From Nitrospirota bacterium (GTDB lineage: Bacteria > Nitrospirota > Nitrospiria > Nitrospirales > Nitrospiraceae): a DNA stretch of 64,000 nucleotides. How positions within the stretch are numbered: position 1 is the first letter of the stretch; each line of letters begins with the position of its first letter. The position numbers and the translations under genes were made by a program. Below, in pieces: positions 7,784-20,193 of the stretch. The notes below the pieces were generated by a model. That model was not told the DNA's origin. It made no database searches and saw only the letters and a list, made by a program, of their open reading frames with translations. The DNA lies in the NCBI GenBank assembly GCA_040757595.1, contig JBFLWP010000010.1, positions 62,001 to 126,000 of the forward strand, given 5' to 3'.

Positions 7784-9589
7784 ATGAACGAACAGGTGCG
7801 TCGCGTCGCGGCATGCCGGGTGTGCGGCCAGAATGACTGGCTTGAGGTCCTCTCGCTCGGGCTTATGCCGTTGGCCAACAACTATCTCGAGCCGGCCCCT
7901 TCCTACGAACACGAGCCCCGCTTCCCGCTCGAGGTCATTGCGTGCCGGTGCTGCTGGCTCGTCAGCCTCCGCCACGTCGTGAATCCCGAGGTGCTCTATC
8001 GCCACTACGTGTACATCTCGTCCGATTCCAAGATGATCGTCCGGCACATGCACCAGCTCGCGGCCCTGACGATTCAGCGGTTCGAGCTGTCGGCCGGGAG
8101 CCTGGTGGTGGAGTTGGGCAGCAACATCGGGACCCAGTTGGAGGTGTTTAGAGACGCAGGCATGCGGGTGCTGGGGATTGACCCGGCCAGGAACCTGGCT
8201 GAGATCGCCAATCGCAAGGGTATTGAGACGCTGCCGGAGTTCTTCGACGCCGGACTGGCTGCCCGCACGGCCCAGCGATACGGCCATCCCAAGGTGATCT
8301 TGGGGCGGCACGTGTTCGCCCATATCGACGACCTGCAGGACGTGCTCAATGGGGTGAAGGCATCGCTGGATCGGACCGGCGTCTTCGCCGTCGAGGTGCC
8401 GTACCTGCTCGACCTGGTCGAGTCCAACCAATTCGACACGATCTACCACGAGCACCTGTCCTACTTTTCGGTCGGGACGCTCGTGCGGCTCTTGGATCGG
8501 CACGGGCTGCGCGTGGTGGACGTGGAGCGGTTCCCGGTCCATGGGGGCTCCATCGTGGTGTTCGGCGCGTTGGCAGATTCCGGCAGGCGGACCAGTCCGT
8601 CGGTCGCTGCTCTGCTCGATCTGGAGGGTCGGAGCGGGCTGACCGAGGAGGGCTACTACCGGCGGTTTGCCGAGCGGGTCGAGCGGACGCGACAGATGCT
8701 GACGCAGCTCGTGCGGCGTCTTTCGAGAGAAGGCAAGCGTGTCGCCGGGTACGGCGCGCCGGCCAAGGGGAACACCCTGCTGAATGCCTGCGGCTTGGAC
8801 AACCGGGAAATCGAATATGTCAGCGACACCACTGAGTTCAAGCAGGGCTTGGTCCTGCCGGGGACCCACATTCCAGTCAAGCCCCCGGCCCATGCGAGGC
8901 AGCACCCGCCCGATTACTTTCTCCTGTTGGCCTGGAACTATGCCAAGGAAATCATCGGGCGGGAACAGGAATATATCCAAGCCGGCGGTAAATTTATCGT
9001 TCCCATTCCGGAGCCTCTCGTCGTCTCGGCTGATTCGCTCGTGGACGGGCGGTTCATTGTCCCAGTGCAACCGGAGGGCGGCGGGCAACTCTGGGCCATG
9101 GACCAAAAGGGCATGGTTCAGTTCAACGAGGGCGAGATCCAGGGCGTGGTCTTCAAGCCGTTGACGGTTCACCAGGATGCGCGGGGTGGGCTGGCGGAAC
9201 TGTTCAGGTCCGACGAGCTGTCGGCTGAATTCCGCCCTCAAATGGCGACCGTCTCCTGGACCGAGCCACAGACAGTCAGAGGTCCCCACGAGCACCTGGA
9301 TCAGAGCAACTTTCTCGTGTTTTTAGGGCCGCAGCTCTTCCAGGTGACCCTGTGGGACAATCGCGAGGCCTCTCCCACCTACCGGCATAGCCTTCGGCGT
9401 GTCGTGGGCGGAGACCAGCCGATCTCGGTTCTGGTGCCGGCAGGGGTCGTGCACGCGTTCCGGAATCTCGGCCAAGAGCGTGGACTGTCGCTGAACTTCC
9501 CCAACCGGCTCTTCCGGGGAGAGCAGCGCCAGGCCGGCGATCACGCGATCAGGTACGAGCAGGACCGGACCAGCCCGTTCAAGGTGTGA
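7784..9589 (+). CDS. Sugar C-methyltransferase fused to an RmlC-like (dTDP-4-keto-rhamnose 3,5-epimerase family) cupin
   Basis: A 601-residue bifunctional-looking protein. Residues 11-57 form a zinc finger (C11xxC14, C54xxC57) as in TylC3/NovU-type sugar C-methyltransferases. Residues ~95-270 are the SAM domain (VVELGSNIGTQLEVF), and ~275-415 the Methyltransf_14-like C domain (VAGYGAPAKGNTLLN). From ~455 to 601 it continues as an RmlC-type cupin: DARGGLAELF, VRGPHEH (His502, His504), WDNREASPTY and VPAGVVHAFRNLG. RmlC enzymes epimerise C3/C5 of dTDP-4-keto sugars. No separate rmlC is present although rmlA, B and D are, so the cupin may fill that step or a branch toward a C-methylated deoxysugar. 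Confidence 0.85.
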   Translation: MNEQVRRVAACRVCGQNDWLEVLSLGLMPLANNYLEPAPSYEHEPRFPLEVIACRCCWLVSLRHVVNPEVLYRHYVYISSDSKMIVRHMHQLAALTIQRFELSAGSLVVELGSNIGTQLEVFRDAGMRVLGIDPARNLAEIANRKGIETLPEFFDAGLAARTAQRYGHPKVILGRHVFAHIDDLQDVLNGVKASLDRTGVFAVEVPYLLDLVESNQFDTIYHEHLSYFSVGTLVRLLDRHGLRVVDVERFPVHGGSIVVFGALADSGRRTSPSVAALLDLEGRSGLTEEGYYRRFAERVERTRQMLTQLVRRLSREGKRVAGYGAPAKGNTLLNACGLDNREIEYVSDTTEFKQGLVLPGTHIPVKPPAHARQHPPDYFLLLAWNYAKEIIGREQEYIQAGGKFIVPIPEPLVVSADSLVDGRFIVPVQPEGGGQLWAMDQKGMVQFNEGEIQGVVFKPLTVHQDARGGLAELFRSDELSAEFRPQMATVSWTEPQTVRGPHEHLDQSNFLVFLGPQLFQVTLWDNREASPTYRHSLRRVVGGDQPISVLVPAGVVHAFRNLGQERGLSLNFPNRLFRGEQRQAGDHAIRYEQDRTSPFKV

Positions 9590-9609
9590 CAGGGGAGATG
9601 CCGGAGCCC

Positions 9610-10509
9610 ATGCCGAAAGTCAGCGTGGTGGTCCCCGTCTATAACGGCGAACGGTACCTCCGGGAAGCGCTCGACAGTGTCTTCGCCCAGACCTTTCGCG
9701 ACTATGAGGTCGTGTGCGTGGACGATGGGTCCAAGGACGGCTCGCTGGATATCCTACAGAGTTACGGCACCAAGGTGACGGTCCTGCGACAGGTGAATCA
9801 GGGCGCCTGTGCGGCTCGCAATGCGGGAGTCCAGGCGACTTCCGCACCCTACGTGGCGTTTCTGGATCAGGACGATCGCTGGTATCCGCACAAGCTGGAG
9901 CAGCAGGTCGCGGTACTCGAGACCGAGCCGGACGTGGTGTTGGTGCTGTGCAACTCGGACCGGATGGACGAACACGGACGGCGGATCCAGGTCGGGGCGG
10001 CGTTGGCCGAGCGGGTAACCAGAAGGCGCTCGCCGTTGGGGCGGTTGATCGACGAGGATCAGTTGCTCTCTTCCGCCATGCTTGTGCGCCGGGAGGCTCT
10101 GGTGCGAGCCGGACTGTACGACCCGGAGCTGCGCGGGTTCGAGGACTTCGACCTCAGCGCGAGGCTCCGACAGCAGGGGCGCTTCGAGTTCCTGGAACAG
10201 CCGGGCATGTGCTACCGGGTGCATGCGGCGAGCCTGAGCCATGCTGCGGGGGGGGCCGTGGTGCGCAGCCGCGAGCGGTTCCTCCTCAAGATGCGGACCC
10301 TCTACGCCGGGGATCGTGAGCGGCAGCGGCTCATCCGGACGATGCTGGCCGAATGCTATTCGGACTGGGGGCTGCGCGAGGTCGGGGCCGGGAACCGAGC
10401 CGAAGGCCGCCGGCTGCTGCTGCGTTCGATCAGTGAGAATCCGATCAAGTTCCGCACCTATTCCCGGTTGATCCGATCCCTCCTGCCAACTGGATCGGTG
10501 AGGGGCTAG
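9610..10509 (+). CDS. Family 2 glycosyltransferase
   Basis: A GT-A enzyme of ~299 residues: KVSVVVPVYNGERYLREALD, VVCVDDGSKDGS, ARNAGVQAT, and LDQDDRWYPHKLE with the DxD-equivalent. The C-terminal helical tail (GNRAEGRRLLLRSI) is shared with its paralogues nearby. An AGGGGAG motif at 9591-9597 favours the ATG at 9610; a GTG at 9586 overlapping the previous stop and an ATG at 9598 are alternatives. Part of the local glycan assembly line. Confidence 0.88.
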   Translation: MPKVSVVVPVYNGERYLREALDSVFAQTFRDYEVVCVDDGSKDGSLDILQSYGTKVTVLRQVNQGACAARNAGVQATSAPYVAFLDQDDRWYPHKLEQQVAVLETEPDVVLVLCNSDRMDEHGRRIQVGAALAERVTRRRSPLGRLIDEDQLLSSAMLVRREALVRAGLYDPELRGFEDFDLSARLRQQGRFEFLEQPGMCYRVHAASLSHAAGGAVVRSRERFLLKMRTLYAGDRERQRLIRTMLAECYSDWGLREVGAGNRAEGRRLLLRSISENPIKFRTYSRLIRSLLPTGSVRG

Positions 10510-16602: not shown

Positions 16603-17337
16603 ATGAAAGGCATCGTGCTGGCGGGCGGCCTCGGAACCCGCTTGTATCCGCTGACGAAGGTGACGAACAAGCACTTGCTCCCGGTCTACGACCGGCCCAT
16701 GATCTATTATCCGATTCAGACCCTGGTGAACGCCGGAATCCGCGAGATCCTGCTGGTCACCGGTGGGAACGGGGCCGGCGATTTCCTCAGGCTGCTGGGC
16801 AACGGGAGAGAGTTCGGTCTTCAGCACGTGGACTATACGTATCAGGAAGGCGAGGGCGGGATCGCCGATGCCCTCCGCTTGGCGGAGCATTTTGCAGATC
16901 GGGGGCCCATCTGCGTCGTCCTTGGGGATAACATTATCGAGCGCAATATCGTGCGTGCGGCCGAAGCGTTCAGGAATCAAAAGGCTGGCGCCAAGATCCT
17001 GCTCAAGGAAGTGAAAGATCCCCAGCGCTTCGGCGTGCCGGTGTTGGAGGGAAACCGCGTGGTCAAGATCGAGGAGAAGCCGGCCACGCCTCAATCCCCC
17101 TATGCGGTGACGGGAATCTACTTCTACGACGCCCGCGTGTTCGAGATCATCAAGACGTTGAAGCCGTCTGCCCGCGGGGAACTGGAGATCACGGACGTGA
17201 ACAACGCTTACATCGAGACCGGACAGCTCACCTGGGACGTGCTGGACGGGTGGTGGACGGACGCCGGCACGATCGAGTCGTTACTGCTGGCGAATCAGCT
17301 CGTTTCGCAGACCGGTGCCAACAAGATGGAGCCATGA
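16603..17337 (+). CDS. rmlA: Glucose-1-phosphate thymidylyltransferase (short form)
   Basis: A 244-residue sugar-nucleotidyltransferase that makes dTDP-glucose from dTTP and glucose-1-phosphate, first step of dTDP-deoxysugar synthesis. The N terminus MKGIVLAGGLGTRLYPLT has the G-x-GTRL-x-P signature; KHLLPVYDRPMIYYP, VVLGDN, and the VVKIEEKP lysine segment follow. It is shorter than the ~290-residue E. coli form but like the short RmlA of many bacteria and archaea. ATGA overlap with rmlB supports co-translation. Confidence 0.9.
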   Translation: MKGIVLAGGLGTRLYPLTKVTNKHLLPVYDRPMIYYPIQTLVNAGIREILLVTGGNGAGDFLRLLGNGREFGLQHVDYTYQEGEGGIADALRLAEHFADRGPICVVLGDNIIERNIVRAAEAFRNQKAGAKILLKEVKDPQRFGVPVLEGNRVVKIEEKPATPQSPYAVTGIYFYDARVFEIIKTLKPSARGELEITDVNNAYIETGQLTWDVLDGWWTDAGTIESLLLANQLVSQTGANKMEP

Positions 17338-18365
17338 TCGTGAAAGTCCTGGTGACAGGCGGCGCGGGGTTCATCGGCTCTCATCTGGTCCGGAGGCTCC
17401 TGGCCGAGCGGGAAACCCACGTGGTCAACGTTGATGCGCTCCGGTACTCCGGTAACTTGGAGAACCTGGCCAATGTCCAGAGCGATCCGCGGTACCTCTT
17501 CGTCCGCGCGGACATCTGCGACGCCAAGGCGATCGAAAAGATCTTCAAGGAACACCGGTTCGAAGCGGTCATCAATTGCGCCGCGGAAACCCACGTGGAC
17601 CGGTCCATCTTGGAGCCGGGCAGTTTCGCCAGGACCGACGTCGTCGGCACGGGAGTGCTGCTGGAGGAAGCGCGAAAAGCTGAGGTGACGCGATTTGTTC
17701 AAGTCAGCACGGATGAAGTCTATGGGAGCGTGGAATCCGGCTCCTCGGGAGAGGATGATCGGCTCGATCCGCGAAGCCCCTATTCGGCCAGCAAGGCCGG
17801 CGGAGATCTGCTGGTCCGAAGCTATTGGACGACGTATCGCTTCCCCGTTCTGATCACCCGCGGGAGCAATACCTACGGCCCGAACCAGTACCCGGAGAAA
17901 TTCATCCCTCTGTTCATCACGAACGCCATTGATGAGCAGCCTCTTCCGCTCTACGGAGACGGGCGATACCGGCGGGACTGGCTGTCGGTCTTCGACCATT
18001 GCGACGGGATTCTCCACGTCTTGCGGCACGGCGAGCCCGGCTGTATCTATAACATCGGGGGCGGGAACGAGCGCGAAAACATCGCCGTGGCCGAAGCGAT
18101 TCTGACGTGCCTGGGCAAGCCGCGGTCGCTGATCCGTCACGTCCAGGATCGTCCCGGGCACGATCGGCGCTATGCGGTAGATTGCGCCAAGCTGCGTGCA
18201 CTGGGATGGACTCCGAGGGTTCCATTCGAGGACGGGCTGCGGGCGACGGTGGACTGGTACAGGAAGAACCAGGAGTGGTGGAGGAAAATCAAATCGGGAG
18301 AGTTCCGGCGGTATTACGAGCGGCTGTATGGCCAACGGCTCAAGGCGGCGGAATGCGCATCCTGA
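17334..18365 (+). CDS. rmlB: dTDP-glucose 4,6-dehydratase
   Basis: A 343-residue extended SDR. VLVTGGAGFIGSHLVRRLL binds NAD. Further signatures are ETHVDRSI, the STDEVYGS active-site segment with adjacent Asp-Glu, SPYSASKAGGDLLV (YxxxK), and TRGSNTYGPNQYPEKFIPL. It converts dTDP-glucose to dTDP-4-keto-6-deoxyglucose. The ATG at 17334 overlaps the rmlA stop; the 3' end overlaps rmlD by 13 bp. Length is normal for the family. Confidence 0.95.
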   Translation: MIVKVLVTGGAGFIGSHLVRRLLAERETHVVNVDALRYSGNLENLANVQSDPRYLFVRADICDAKAIEKIFKEHRFEAVINCAAETHVDRSILEPGSFARTDVVGTGVLLEEARKAEVTRFVQVSTDEVYGSVESGSSGEDDRLDPRSPYSASKAGGDLLVRSYWTTYRFPVLITRGSNTYGPNQYPEKFIPLFITNAIDEQPLPLYGDGRYRRDWLSVFDHCDGILHVLRHGEPGCIYNIGGGNERENIAVAEAILTCLGKPRSLIRHVQDRPGHDRRYAVDCAKLRALGWTPRVPFEDGLRATVDWYRKNQEWWRKIKSGEFRRYYERLYGQRLKAAECAS

Positions 18366-19210
18366 TTACCGGAGCCGACGGGCAGCTCGGATGCGAACTG
18401 CAGCGGGTGCTGGCGGGACACCAGTTGGCGCTCGGCATCTGGCCGGAGTTCGATCTGCTTGAGGATGGAGTGGAGCGATGTATCCTCGACGCGAAGCCGG
18501 ACGTCGTCATCCATGCCGCGGCCTACACCGACGTCGAGCGGGCGGAGCGCGAGCCTGGTCTCGCCATGGCCGTCAATGGTGAAGGGACCGGACGGGTGGC
18601 CAGAGCGGTGGGCAAAGTCGGAGGGAGGCTGGTCTACGTTTCGACTGACTATGTCTTCGACGGCCGCAAGCGAGAACCGTACGTTGAGACGGACCAGCCC
18701 AATCCCATCAATGCCTACGGACGTTCCAAGCTCGAGGGTGAGCGGCAGGCGCTCGCCCATTGTTCCAACGTCGTCGTGGTACGGACTGCCTGGCTGTATG
18801 GGACCACCGGCAAGAATTTTGTCAAAACCATCATGCAGTTGGCCGAACATGAACCGGAGCTGCGCGTCGTAGCGGATCAGCGGGGCTCCCCCACGCACGC
18901 AGGCGACCTGGCCCAAGCCGTCGCCTGTCTATTGGCAACGGACATCCGCGGGGTCACCCATGCGACCGGCTCCGGTGACTGTACGTGGCACGAGTTCGCC
19001 ACCGCAATCATTTCCTTGATGGGTTCTTCAGTGCCTGTGAAGCCCATCACAACAGCGGAGGCGAAGCGCGAGGCAGTTCGGCCGCCCTATACCGTATTGG
19101 CCAACCGGGTCTTGGCAAAGGCCGGAATTACGCTCCCTCACTGGCGGGACGCCTTGACGAGGTTCATGGCTGAATTTCGGGCAGGCGCGGCGAAAGGAGA
19201 ACGAGGGTGA
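18353..19210 (+). CDS. rmlD: dTDP-4-dehydrorhamnose reductase
   Basis: A 285-residue SDR: MRILITGADGQLGCELQRVL at the N terminus, HAAAYTDVERAE, VYVSTDYVFDG, PINAYGRSKLEGE (YxxxK) and RTAWLYG, all RmlD hallmarks. It reduces dTDP-4-keto-L-rhamnose to dTDP-L-rhamnose. It overlaps rmlB at the 5' end and gmd at the 3' end. The 3,5-epimerase normally acting before it has no stand-alone gene here; the cupin domain at about 9146-9589 is the nearest candidate. Confidence 0.93.
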   Translation: MRILITGADGQLGCELQRVLAGHQLALGIWPEFDLLEDGVERCILDAKPDVVIHAAAYTDVERAEREPGLAMAVNGEGTGRVARAVGKVGGRLVYVSTDYVFDGRKREPYVETDQPNPINAYGRSKLEGERQALAHCSNVVVVRTAWLYGTTGKNFVKTIMQLAEHEPELRVVADQRGSPTHAGDLAQAVACLLATDIRGVTHATGSGDCTWHEFATAIISLMGSSVPVKPITTAEAKREAVRPPYTVLANRVLAKAGITLPHWRDALTRFMAEFRAGAAKGERG

Positions 19211-20193
19211 AGCGGGCGCTCATCACCGGCATTACCGGGCAGGACGGCTCCTATCTGGCCGAGCTCTTGCTGGACAAAGGATACGAGGTCCATGGAATCG
19301 TCCGGCGGGTGGCGATCGAGGACCCGGAGCACCGCCTCTGGCGCATTCTGCACCTGAAAGATCGCATCCATCTGCACGCCGCTTCGCTCGAAAGCCTTCC
19401 GAGCATCTATAGGGTATTCCAGACGGTGAAGCCGGACGAGTGCTACCACCTAGCAGCCCAGAGTTTTGTGACCTATTCGTTTGAGGATGAGTTTTCCACG
19501 CTCAATGCCAACGTCAACGGCACGCACTACGTGCTGGCTGCTCTGCGCGACTGTACGCCCGGTTGTCGGTTCTACTTCGCGGCATCGAGTGAGATGTTCG
19601 GCAAGGTTGCGCAAGTCCCTCAGAACGAGCAGACTCCATTTCATCCACGTTCCGCCTACGGCATTTCGAAAGTGGCTGGCTTCCACCTGACCAGAAACTA
19701 CCGCGAGGCCTATGGTATCAAAGCCGCCTGCGGCATTCTTTACAACCACGAGTCACCACGCCGGGGCTTCGAGTTCGTAACCAGGAAAATCTCCTCTCAG
19801 GCAGCGAAGATCAAGCTGGGGCTGGCCAAGGAAGTGCGGCTGGGGAACCTGGAGGCTCGCCGAGACTGGGGACATGCGCGTGAGTATGTCCGGGCGATGT
19901 GGCTGATGCTGCAACAGGATGAGCCGGAGGATTATGTCATTGCGACGGGCGAAGAACACTCCGTTCGCGAGTTCGCCGACGCGGCTTTTTCGCATGTAGG
20001 CCTCGACTACCGCCGGTATGTGGCTGTGGATCCGCAGCTCTTCCGACCCGCTGAAGTGGAGTCCCTCTTGGGCGATGCAACCAAAGCTAAGCGCGGACTC
20101 GGTTGGTCTCATGCGGTGTCCTTCAAGGACTTGGTGCGGGAGATGGTCGAATCCGACTTGAAAACGCTCACCGATGCCCGGTTTGGACGGTAG
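19207..20193 (+). CDS. gmd: GDP-mannose 4,6-dehydratase
   Basis: A 328-residue SDR with GTG start overlapping the rmlD stop. GITGQDGSYLAELLLDKGYE is the Gmd-type NAD site; AASSEMFGK, HPRSAYGISKVAG (YxxxK), ILYNHESPRRG and RDWGHAREYVRAMW are all Gmd signatures. It produces GDP-4-keto-6-deoxymannose, precursor of GDP-fucose, GDP-rhamnose or GDP-perosamine. No reductase or aminotransferase partner is adjacent, so the end product is not known. manC and manB downstream supply GDP-mannose. Confidence 0.92.
   Translation: MKRALITGITGQDGSYLAELLLDKGYEVHGIVRRVAIEDPEHRLWRILHLKDRIHLHAASLESLPSIYRVFQTVKPDECYHLAAQSFVTYSFEDEFSTLNANVNGTHYVLAALRDCTPGCRFYFAASSEMFGKVAQVPQNEQTPFHPRSAYGISKVAGFHLTRNYREAYGIKAACGILYNHESPRRGFEFVTRKISSQAAKIKLGLAKEVRLGNLEARRDWGHAREYVRAMWLMLQQDEPEDYVIATGEEHSVREFADAAFSHVGLDYRRYVAVDPQLFRPAEVESLLGDATKAKRGLGWSHAVSFKDLVREMVESDLKTLTDARFGR

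Follow-up and report, generated by a model that had tools for sequence, protein, structure and literature searches.

A gene in a Nitrospirota genome joins, in a single polypeptide, a sugar C-methyltransferase and a cupin of a short RmlC type. Our preferred reading, to which we give a probability of roughly 0.45, is that both domains tailor an NDP-sugar: the protein would help to make a C-methyl-branched 6-deoxyhexose for a surface polysaccharide, the cupin epimerizing the methylated 4-keto sugar. The gene lies in a stretch of 64,000 nucleotides (the window; G000:C10:62001-126000) from a genome, G000, of 3.37 Mb in 36 contigs.

Domain architecture of the fusion gene

The fusion gene (7784..9589, plus strand) is a single ORF of 601 aa, which confirms the fusion first noticed from the letters alone. 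Its methyltransferase half (residues 1-415) contains three Pfam parts in the order PF08421, PF13489, and PF08484, all above their cut-offs: an N-terminal zinc-binding part (7814..7999, residues 11-72; 72.5 bits versus 31.3), a SAM-binding part (8042..8521, residues 87-246; 62.3 bits versus 27), and a C-terminal part (8534..9010, residues 251-409; 188.7 bits). A linker (9029..9133, residues 416-450) leads to the cupin (9134..9586, residues 451-601), in which PF00908 (dTDP_sugar_isom) matches residues 451-564 with 36.7 bits against a Pfam cut-off of 27. These matches support the earlier proposal in that both halves come from families acting on NDP-4-keto-6-deoxysugars. The linker has low confidence in the predicted model (pLDDT below 50 at residues 427-437 and 440-450). 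The next gene on the plus strand (9586..10509) encodes a family-2-like glycosyltransferase, a family judged by eye from the sequence. Its GTG start overlaps the stop codon of the fusion (GTGA), so the two genes are probably co-transcribed.

Conservation and rarity of the fusion

A second fusion, also of 601 aa, colinear and gapless with 73% identity, is present at locus L057 of Nitrospirota bacterium REEB37 (G218), in a neighborhood that has several genes in common with the window. Because this gapless homolog exists in another genome, the fusion is not a product of chance, assembly, or sequencing error. The two genomes are placed in one family, and the fusion is conserved across two genera. 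The PF00908 score of the second cupin is 34.3 bits, and linker residues 416-447 are 56% identical between the two proteins. By a simple NG86 count on this pair, both halves are under purifying selection, with dN/dS of ~0.08 for the cupin and ~0.10 for the methyltransferase; dS is near saturation, and these values are rough.

The fusion is real and rare. It was found in 2 of 175 genomes of the family, in 2 of 269 genomes of the class (no third was seen), and, with the cupin as query, in 2 of 395 sampled genomes of the phylum. Of 170 plasmid records that gave a match, not one covered 80% of the fusion protein at a single place. Among 396 Actinomycetota genomes there was no fusion, and the only match at E ≤ 1e-120 was the methyltransferase alone. 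A contig scan with just two short peptide patterns found the one other fusion; absence from that scan is weak evidence. The closest unfused relative of the methyltransferase (G455) is 68% identical, has 429 aa, and ends at its own stop codon with no cupin on the same frame, and a further genome (G456) holds the first 66 residues of an ortholog cut by a contig end. No paper on a methyltransferase-RmlC fusion was found in the open-licence PMC literature, as judged by titles and the beginnings of abstracts.

The methyltransferase half

The closest solved relative of the methyltransferase half is MtmC, the D-mycarose 3-C-methyltransferase of Streptomyces argillaceus (PDB 4rv9; E 9.4e-160; 55% identity and TMt 0.94 in Foldseek), which resembles the whole N-terminal domain; unlike the fusion, its solved chain (426 aa) has no cupin. 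KijD1 and TcaB9 follow. The TcaB9 residues named as mutants in PDB titles (Y76F, H181N, Y222F, E224Q, and H225N) correspond, once a chain offset of 2 read off the alignment is allowed for, to Y75, H180, Y221, E223, and H224, and all five are kept in the window protein and in L057. The PF13489 part contains the run Tyr221-His222-Glu223-His224. Cys11, Cys14, Cys54, and Cys57 in the PF08421 part, the zinc ligands of the family, are likewise all kept in L057. By these sequence features, the N-terminal half is a TylC3/MtmC-type sugar C-methyltransferase with predicted SAM-dependent activity.

Two neighborhoods of homologs bear on the product. A homolog with 56% identity sits in the C-1027 enediyne cluster, with a separate epimerase-family gene nearby; the methyltransferase of that cluster acts at C5, so that methylation at C5 rather than C3 is conceivable here as well. 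Another homolog adjoins an NDP-hexose 2,3-dehydratase gene. MtmC itself serves a 2,6-dideoxy sugar pathway. A protein query for the 2,3-dehydratase gave no match in either fusion genome (a control record matched), which makes a 6-deoxy rather than a 2,6-dideoxy sugar the probable product. For virenose, TylCIII-type methyltransferases have been proposed to act on 6-deoxy substrates, and the S. argillaceus homolog reportedly has ketoreductase activity (both in excerpts of PMC3539893). By analogy with the S. argillaceus enzyme, the methyltransferase of the fusion may also reduce the 4-keto group.

The fused cupin belongs to a family of short RmlC relatives

The first-pass annotation had called the C-terminal half an RmlC-like cupin. 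That description holds at the level of PF00908 and of the catalytic histidine, and fails at the level of canonical RmlC. His502, His504, and His557 are where they had been placed, and H502 aligns with the catalytic His of the RGLHYQ motif of RmlC. TIGR01221, the model for canonical RmlC, gives the fused cupin 16.8 to 20.3 bits against a cut-off of 155.75. RmlC also has a Lys and a Tyr with roles in the active site, and an Asp that partners the catalytic His. By alignment and by spacing to the RmlC of G000 itself, the Lys and Tyr positions are taken by N509 (or F510) and L570; the C-terminal strand, the place of the partner Asp, aligned only loosely with RmlC. EvaD, NovW, and ChmJ share the fold and the catalytic-His position with the fused cupin, as does canonical RmlC; these proteins differ from it in their length of ~180-200 aa and in having the Lys and Tyr that are absent from the short family.

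A tree of 49 rows pairs the fused cupins with each other at 100/100 and nests them in a 43-row clade of short cupins (99/99), apart from RmlC. We therefore assign the fused cupin to the short RmlC relatives (~155 aa) rather than to canonical RmlC. A model of the cupin alone (pLDDT 90, pTM 0.84) best matches 3ejk (Z 18.8, rmsd 2.1 over 145), followed by RmlC, EvaD, ChmJ, NovW, and GDP-heptose epimerases at Z of ~14.5-17, the first four of these at ~14.5-16. These sugar epimerases are matched over nearly the full length; a shared fold does not establish function.

The phylum sample holds 74 further genomes with unfused near relatives of ~155 aa, mostly 40-50% identical (E ≤ 1e-17). Loci were read in 19 of these genomes and show rmlA-cupin-rmlB-rmlD operons, with rmlB nearby in all, rmlA in 17, and rmlD in 18; in two loci (L039 and L042) a simple ORF caller had skipped the cupin, and its position was taken from the phylum search. 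When one such operon was compared with NCBIfam, long RmlA, RmlB, and RmlD scored above their cut-offs and the cupin below. Canonical RmlC above cut-off was absent from 35 and present in 7 of the 42 short-cupin genomes tested for it. Relatives carried on plasmids of Peribacillus and Haladaptatus likewise stand alongside rfbA/B/D-type genes. The position in rml operons, mostly with no canonical RmlC in the genome, argues that the short family very probably does the work of RmlC. SpsL of Bacillus is probably of the same type. Spore-surface rhamnose depends on SpsI, SpsJ, SpsK, and SpsL, according to an excerpt of PMC4191935.

The short cupin (for example, L048:7598-8065) thus very probably stands in for RmlC in rml operons across the phylum, and TIGR01221 misses it at its cut-off. 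Rhamnose pathways in Nitrospirota can consequently look incomplete in annotation, the rmlC equivalog model missing a widespread short replacement.

Residues changed in both fused cupins

The fused cupins share the HxH motif and H557 with the short cupins of Nitrospirota, Peribacillus, and Haladaptatus and differ from them at otherwise invariant positions. We compared them with 41 relatives, 19 from genomes and 22 from IMG/VR (16 of these 22 fused to RmlD). The 22 came from 30 IMG/VR loci and entered row set A4. Left aside were three loci that repeat the ORF pattern of L083 (L084-L086), one with a stop inside the match (L087), two near copies (L093 and L097), and two partial loci (L095 and L107). 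Set A6 holds 20 of the 22, without the near copies L092 and L101. Twenty-five positions are invariant among the 41. The window cupin keeps 19 of them and departs at six (Y489T, D509N, F511L, Y559F, D587H, and E588A); that of L057 keeps 20, with 559 unchanged and D587E in place of D587H. In a leave-one-out control, 38 of the 41 relatives departed at none of the invariant positions and 3 at one. Both fusions have thus lost Y489, D509, F511, D587, and E588, which all 41 relatives keep, and both retain H502, H504, Q507, H557, D465, R467, E472, R475, R499, N571, R590, and E592. These patterns suggest that the nucleotide-binding core is retained and the sugar side remodeled, the sugar-facing placement coming from alignment. 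Together with H557, the HxH(x)4D pattern that closes at D509 looks like a cupin metal site; the Asn present at 509 in both fusions would probably remove a carboxylate metal ligand.

With D509N and the loss of the Asp-Glu pair at 587-588 among the changes at six (window) or five (L057) of the 25 invariant positions, the fused cupin may not be an active epimerase. It is possible, if on the doubtful side, that the methyltransferase is the sole enzyme and that the cupin has degenerated as an epimerase but is maintained for binding nucleotide sugars, for oligomerization, or for stability. Besides the replaced residues, the existence of methyltransferases without a cupin (the 68% identical protein of G455 and MtmC as solved) fits such a history. 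However, purifying selection on the cupin is about as strong as on the methyltransferase, the HxH motif, Q507, H557, R467, E472, R499, N571, R590, and E592 are all kept, and the confident model matches sugar epimerases. Moreover, L057 has an Asp-Glu pair one residue earlier (Asp586-Glu587), so part of the change at 587-588 may be a shift in the alignment. Residue loss and a canonical rmlC elsewhere, which had been named as grounds for abandoning the epimerase idea, were both found; they dispose of its rhamnose half, discussed below. The Lys and Tyr of RmlC are missing from the short relatives too, and these nevertheless occupy the rmlC slot, so the epimerase role is not fully refuted.

A candidate pathway to a branched sugar

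The favored reading, an active two-domain tailoring enzyme, draws on genes 7 kb downstream of the fusion, all on the plus strand. They are an rmlA-like glucose-1-phosphate nucleotidyltransferase gene (16603..17337), rmlB for dTDP-glucose 4,6-dehydratase (~17328..18365; TIGR01181, 431 bits versus 365; start chosen in an ORF that opens at 17250), and rmlD for dTDP-4-dehydrorhamnose reductase (~18350..19210; TIGR01214, 298 bits versus 224; start chosen). The rmlA-like protein is short (244 aa) and scores below cut-off (TIGR01207, 254 bits versus 360.65), which leaves its sugar and nucleotide specificity uncertain.

The RmlA/RmlB-like pair would supply dTDP-4-keto-6-deoxyglucose. The N-terminal domain would form the C3 (less likely the C5) enolate, methylate it from SAM, and perhaps also reduce the 4-keto group, as its S. 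argillaceus homolog suggests. The cupin, on its flexible linker, would take the methylated 4-keto sugar and epimerize it at C5 and/or C3, a role that separate EvaD- or NovW-type proteins play for EvaC- or NovU-type methyltransferases. Nucleotide binding and the general base would fall to its conserved RmlC-like core (D465, R467, E472, R499, H502, and H557), and the changes that the two fusions share (at 489, 509, 511, 587, and 588) would accommodate the branched substrate. RmlD or the methyltransferase itself would finish the sugar, and rhamnose would be made separately through the canonical rmlC. That one polypeptide turns dTDP-4-keto-6-deoxyglucose into a branched deoxysugar by C-methylation, epimerization of the methylated ketone in a short RmlC cupin re-tuned for it, and possibly an MtmC-like 4-ketoreduction, making it a three-step branching enzyme, strikes us as rather unlikely. 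Were the cupin active, a single gene would cover two or three steps on the way to a branched sugar, which would be of use in the enzymatic synthesis of rare sugars, and its RmlC-type site would be one adapted to a methylated ketone.

Gene order elsewhere agrees with coupled steps. Antibiotic pathways pair a separate C-methyltransferase with an RmlC-like epimerase, as in EvaC/EvaD and NovU/NovW. Three further genomes of the family (L072, L073, and L076) have a TylC3-type methyltransferase gene in the same gene run as an RmlC-family gene, an adjacency that supports coupling of the two steps. The runs of G187 and G330 contain a glucose-1-phosphate cytidylyltransferase, the RmlC-family gene, and the methyltransferase. 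That of G330 also has a CDP-glucose 4,6-dehydratase above cut-off, whose counterpart in G187 is a 350-aa gene with no model match at the threshold used; the RmlC of G330, at 152.3 bits, is just below the cut-off of 155.75. Given this adjacency and the pairing in antibiotic pathways, the fusion fits the logic of coupled steps, and consecutive steps toward a branched deoxysugar, the reason suggested at the outset, still seem the likeliest explanation for it.

The third of these runs, that of G402 (L076:627-5454), reads rmlA-rmlC-rmlB-methyltransferase-rmlD and is a candidate pathway in which unfused proteins would build a branched sugar.

The nucleotide of the substrate

The evidence is compatible with either regiochemistry, C3 or C5, and with either dTDP or GDP as nucleotide. 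The window also has a GDP-mannose 4,6-dehydratase-like gene (19207..20193, plus strand; TIGR01472, 398 bits, just below the cut-off of 415), beside which genes for mannose-1-phosphate guanylyltransferase and phosphomannomutase were read by eye. The substrate could thus be GDP-4-keto-6-deoxymannose, converted to a GDP-activated branched sugar. The nearest methyltransferase homologs with known substrates use dTDP sugars, KijD1 and TcaB9 by their structure titles and MtmC as well; the short cupins, too, sit in dTDP-rhamnose operons. We therefore consider a GDP substrate improbable, even though a GDP route with a TylCIII-type methyltransferase is what has been proposed for virenose (PMC3539893, excerpt). 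Because the choice of nucleotide cuts across the other readings, the probabilities that we attach to the alternatives overlap.

Rhamnose is not the purpose of the fused cupin

The first-pass annotation had also pointed out that the locus has rmlA, rmlB, and rmlD but no rmlC, and had suggested that the fused cupin supplies the missing rhamnose step. The gene inventory is true of the window, with the rmlA-like gene below cut-off. A PF00908 search of the genome gave no second RmlC within the window; of its two matches, one is the fused cupin and the other lies on a different contig. The latter is a canonical rmlC (G000:C8:118973-119491, 241.5 bits with TIGR01221), and the other fusion genome has one as well (G218:C79:2732-3250, 227.6 bits). 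The rmlC of G000 has no other rml gene as a neighbor in the stretch read around it (L074), so that the window taken by itself seems to lack the step; the genome does not.

That the cupin is the dTDP-4-keto-rhamnose 3,5-epimerase of this genome has in its favor the neighboring rml genes and the replacement of rmlC by short relatives in rml operons. Those relatives, however, carry no fused methyltransferase in the loci read, whereas the fused cupin lies 7 kb from the rml genes, in a genome with a canonical rmlC, and has lost residues common to 41 aligned relatives. With canonical rmlC in both fusion genomes, this explanation is very unlikely. The fused cupin is not needed for rhamnose synthesis, and rhamnose is not its purpose.

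Least probable of all is that the cupin has moved to another 4-keto-sugar reaction, such as an FdtA/QdtA-type 3,4-ketoisomerization: two of four stand-alone relatives scanned exceed the PF05523 cut-off of 23 (26.4 and 25.7 bits) and QdtA/FdtD structures match the cupin model at Z 13-14, but the fused cupin itself scores just 11.5 bits and RmlC-type structures match better.

Other fusions of RmlC-type cupins

Cupins of this kind are joined to sugar enzymes in other settings. The C-terminal cupin of CapF (Cap5F) resembles the fused cupin by sequence in its HxH(x)4-carboxylate pattern and distal His, and it too is fused to a sugar enzyme; there the partner is a reductase domain, and the cupin acts on a UDP-amino sugar. 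In Prymnesium parvum an RmlC-type domain is, as here, fused to an enzyme of a neighboring step, the partner being the reductase RmlD rather than a C-methyltransferase, and that fusion was shown to make TDP- and UDP-rhamnose (PMC6556577, excerpt).

On IMG/VR viral contigs of up to 331,849 bases (L088-L106), proteins of 414-488 aa join a short RmlC cupin to an RmlD-like reductase (for example, L090:3956-5206 and L102:3959-5248). PF04321 was found in all three of the viral fusions tested for it, and most viral fusions adjoin an RmlB-like gene, an arrangement that suggests a compact NDP-rhamnose-type pathway.
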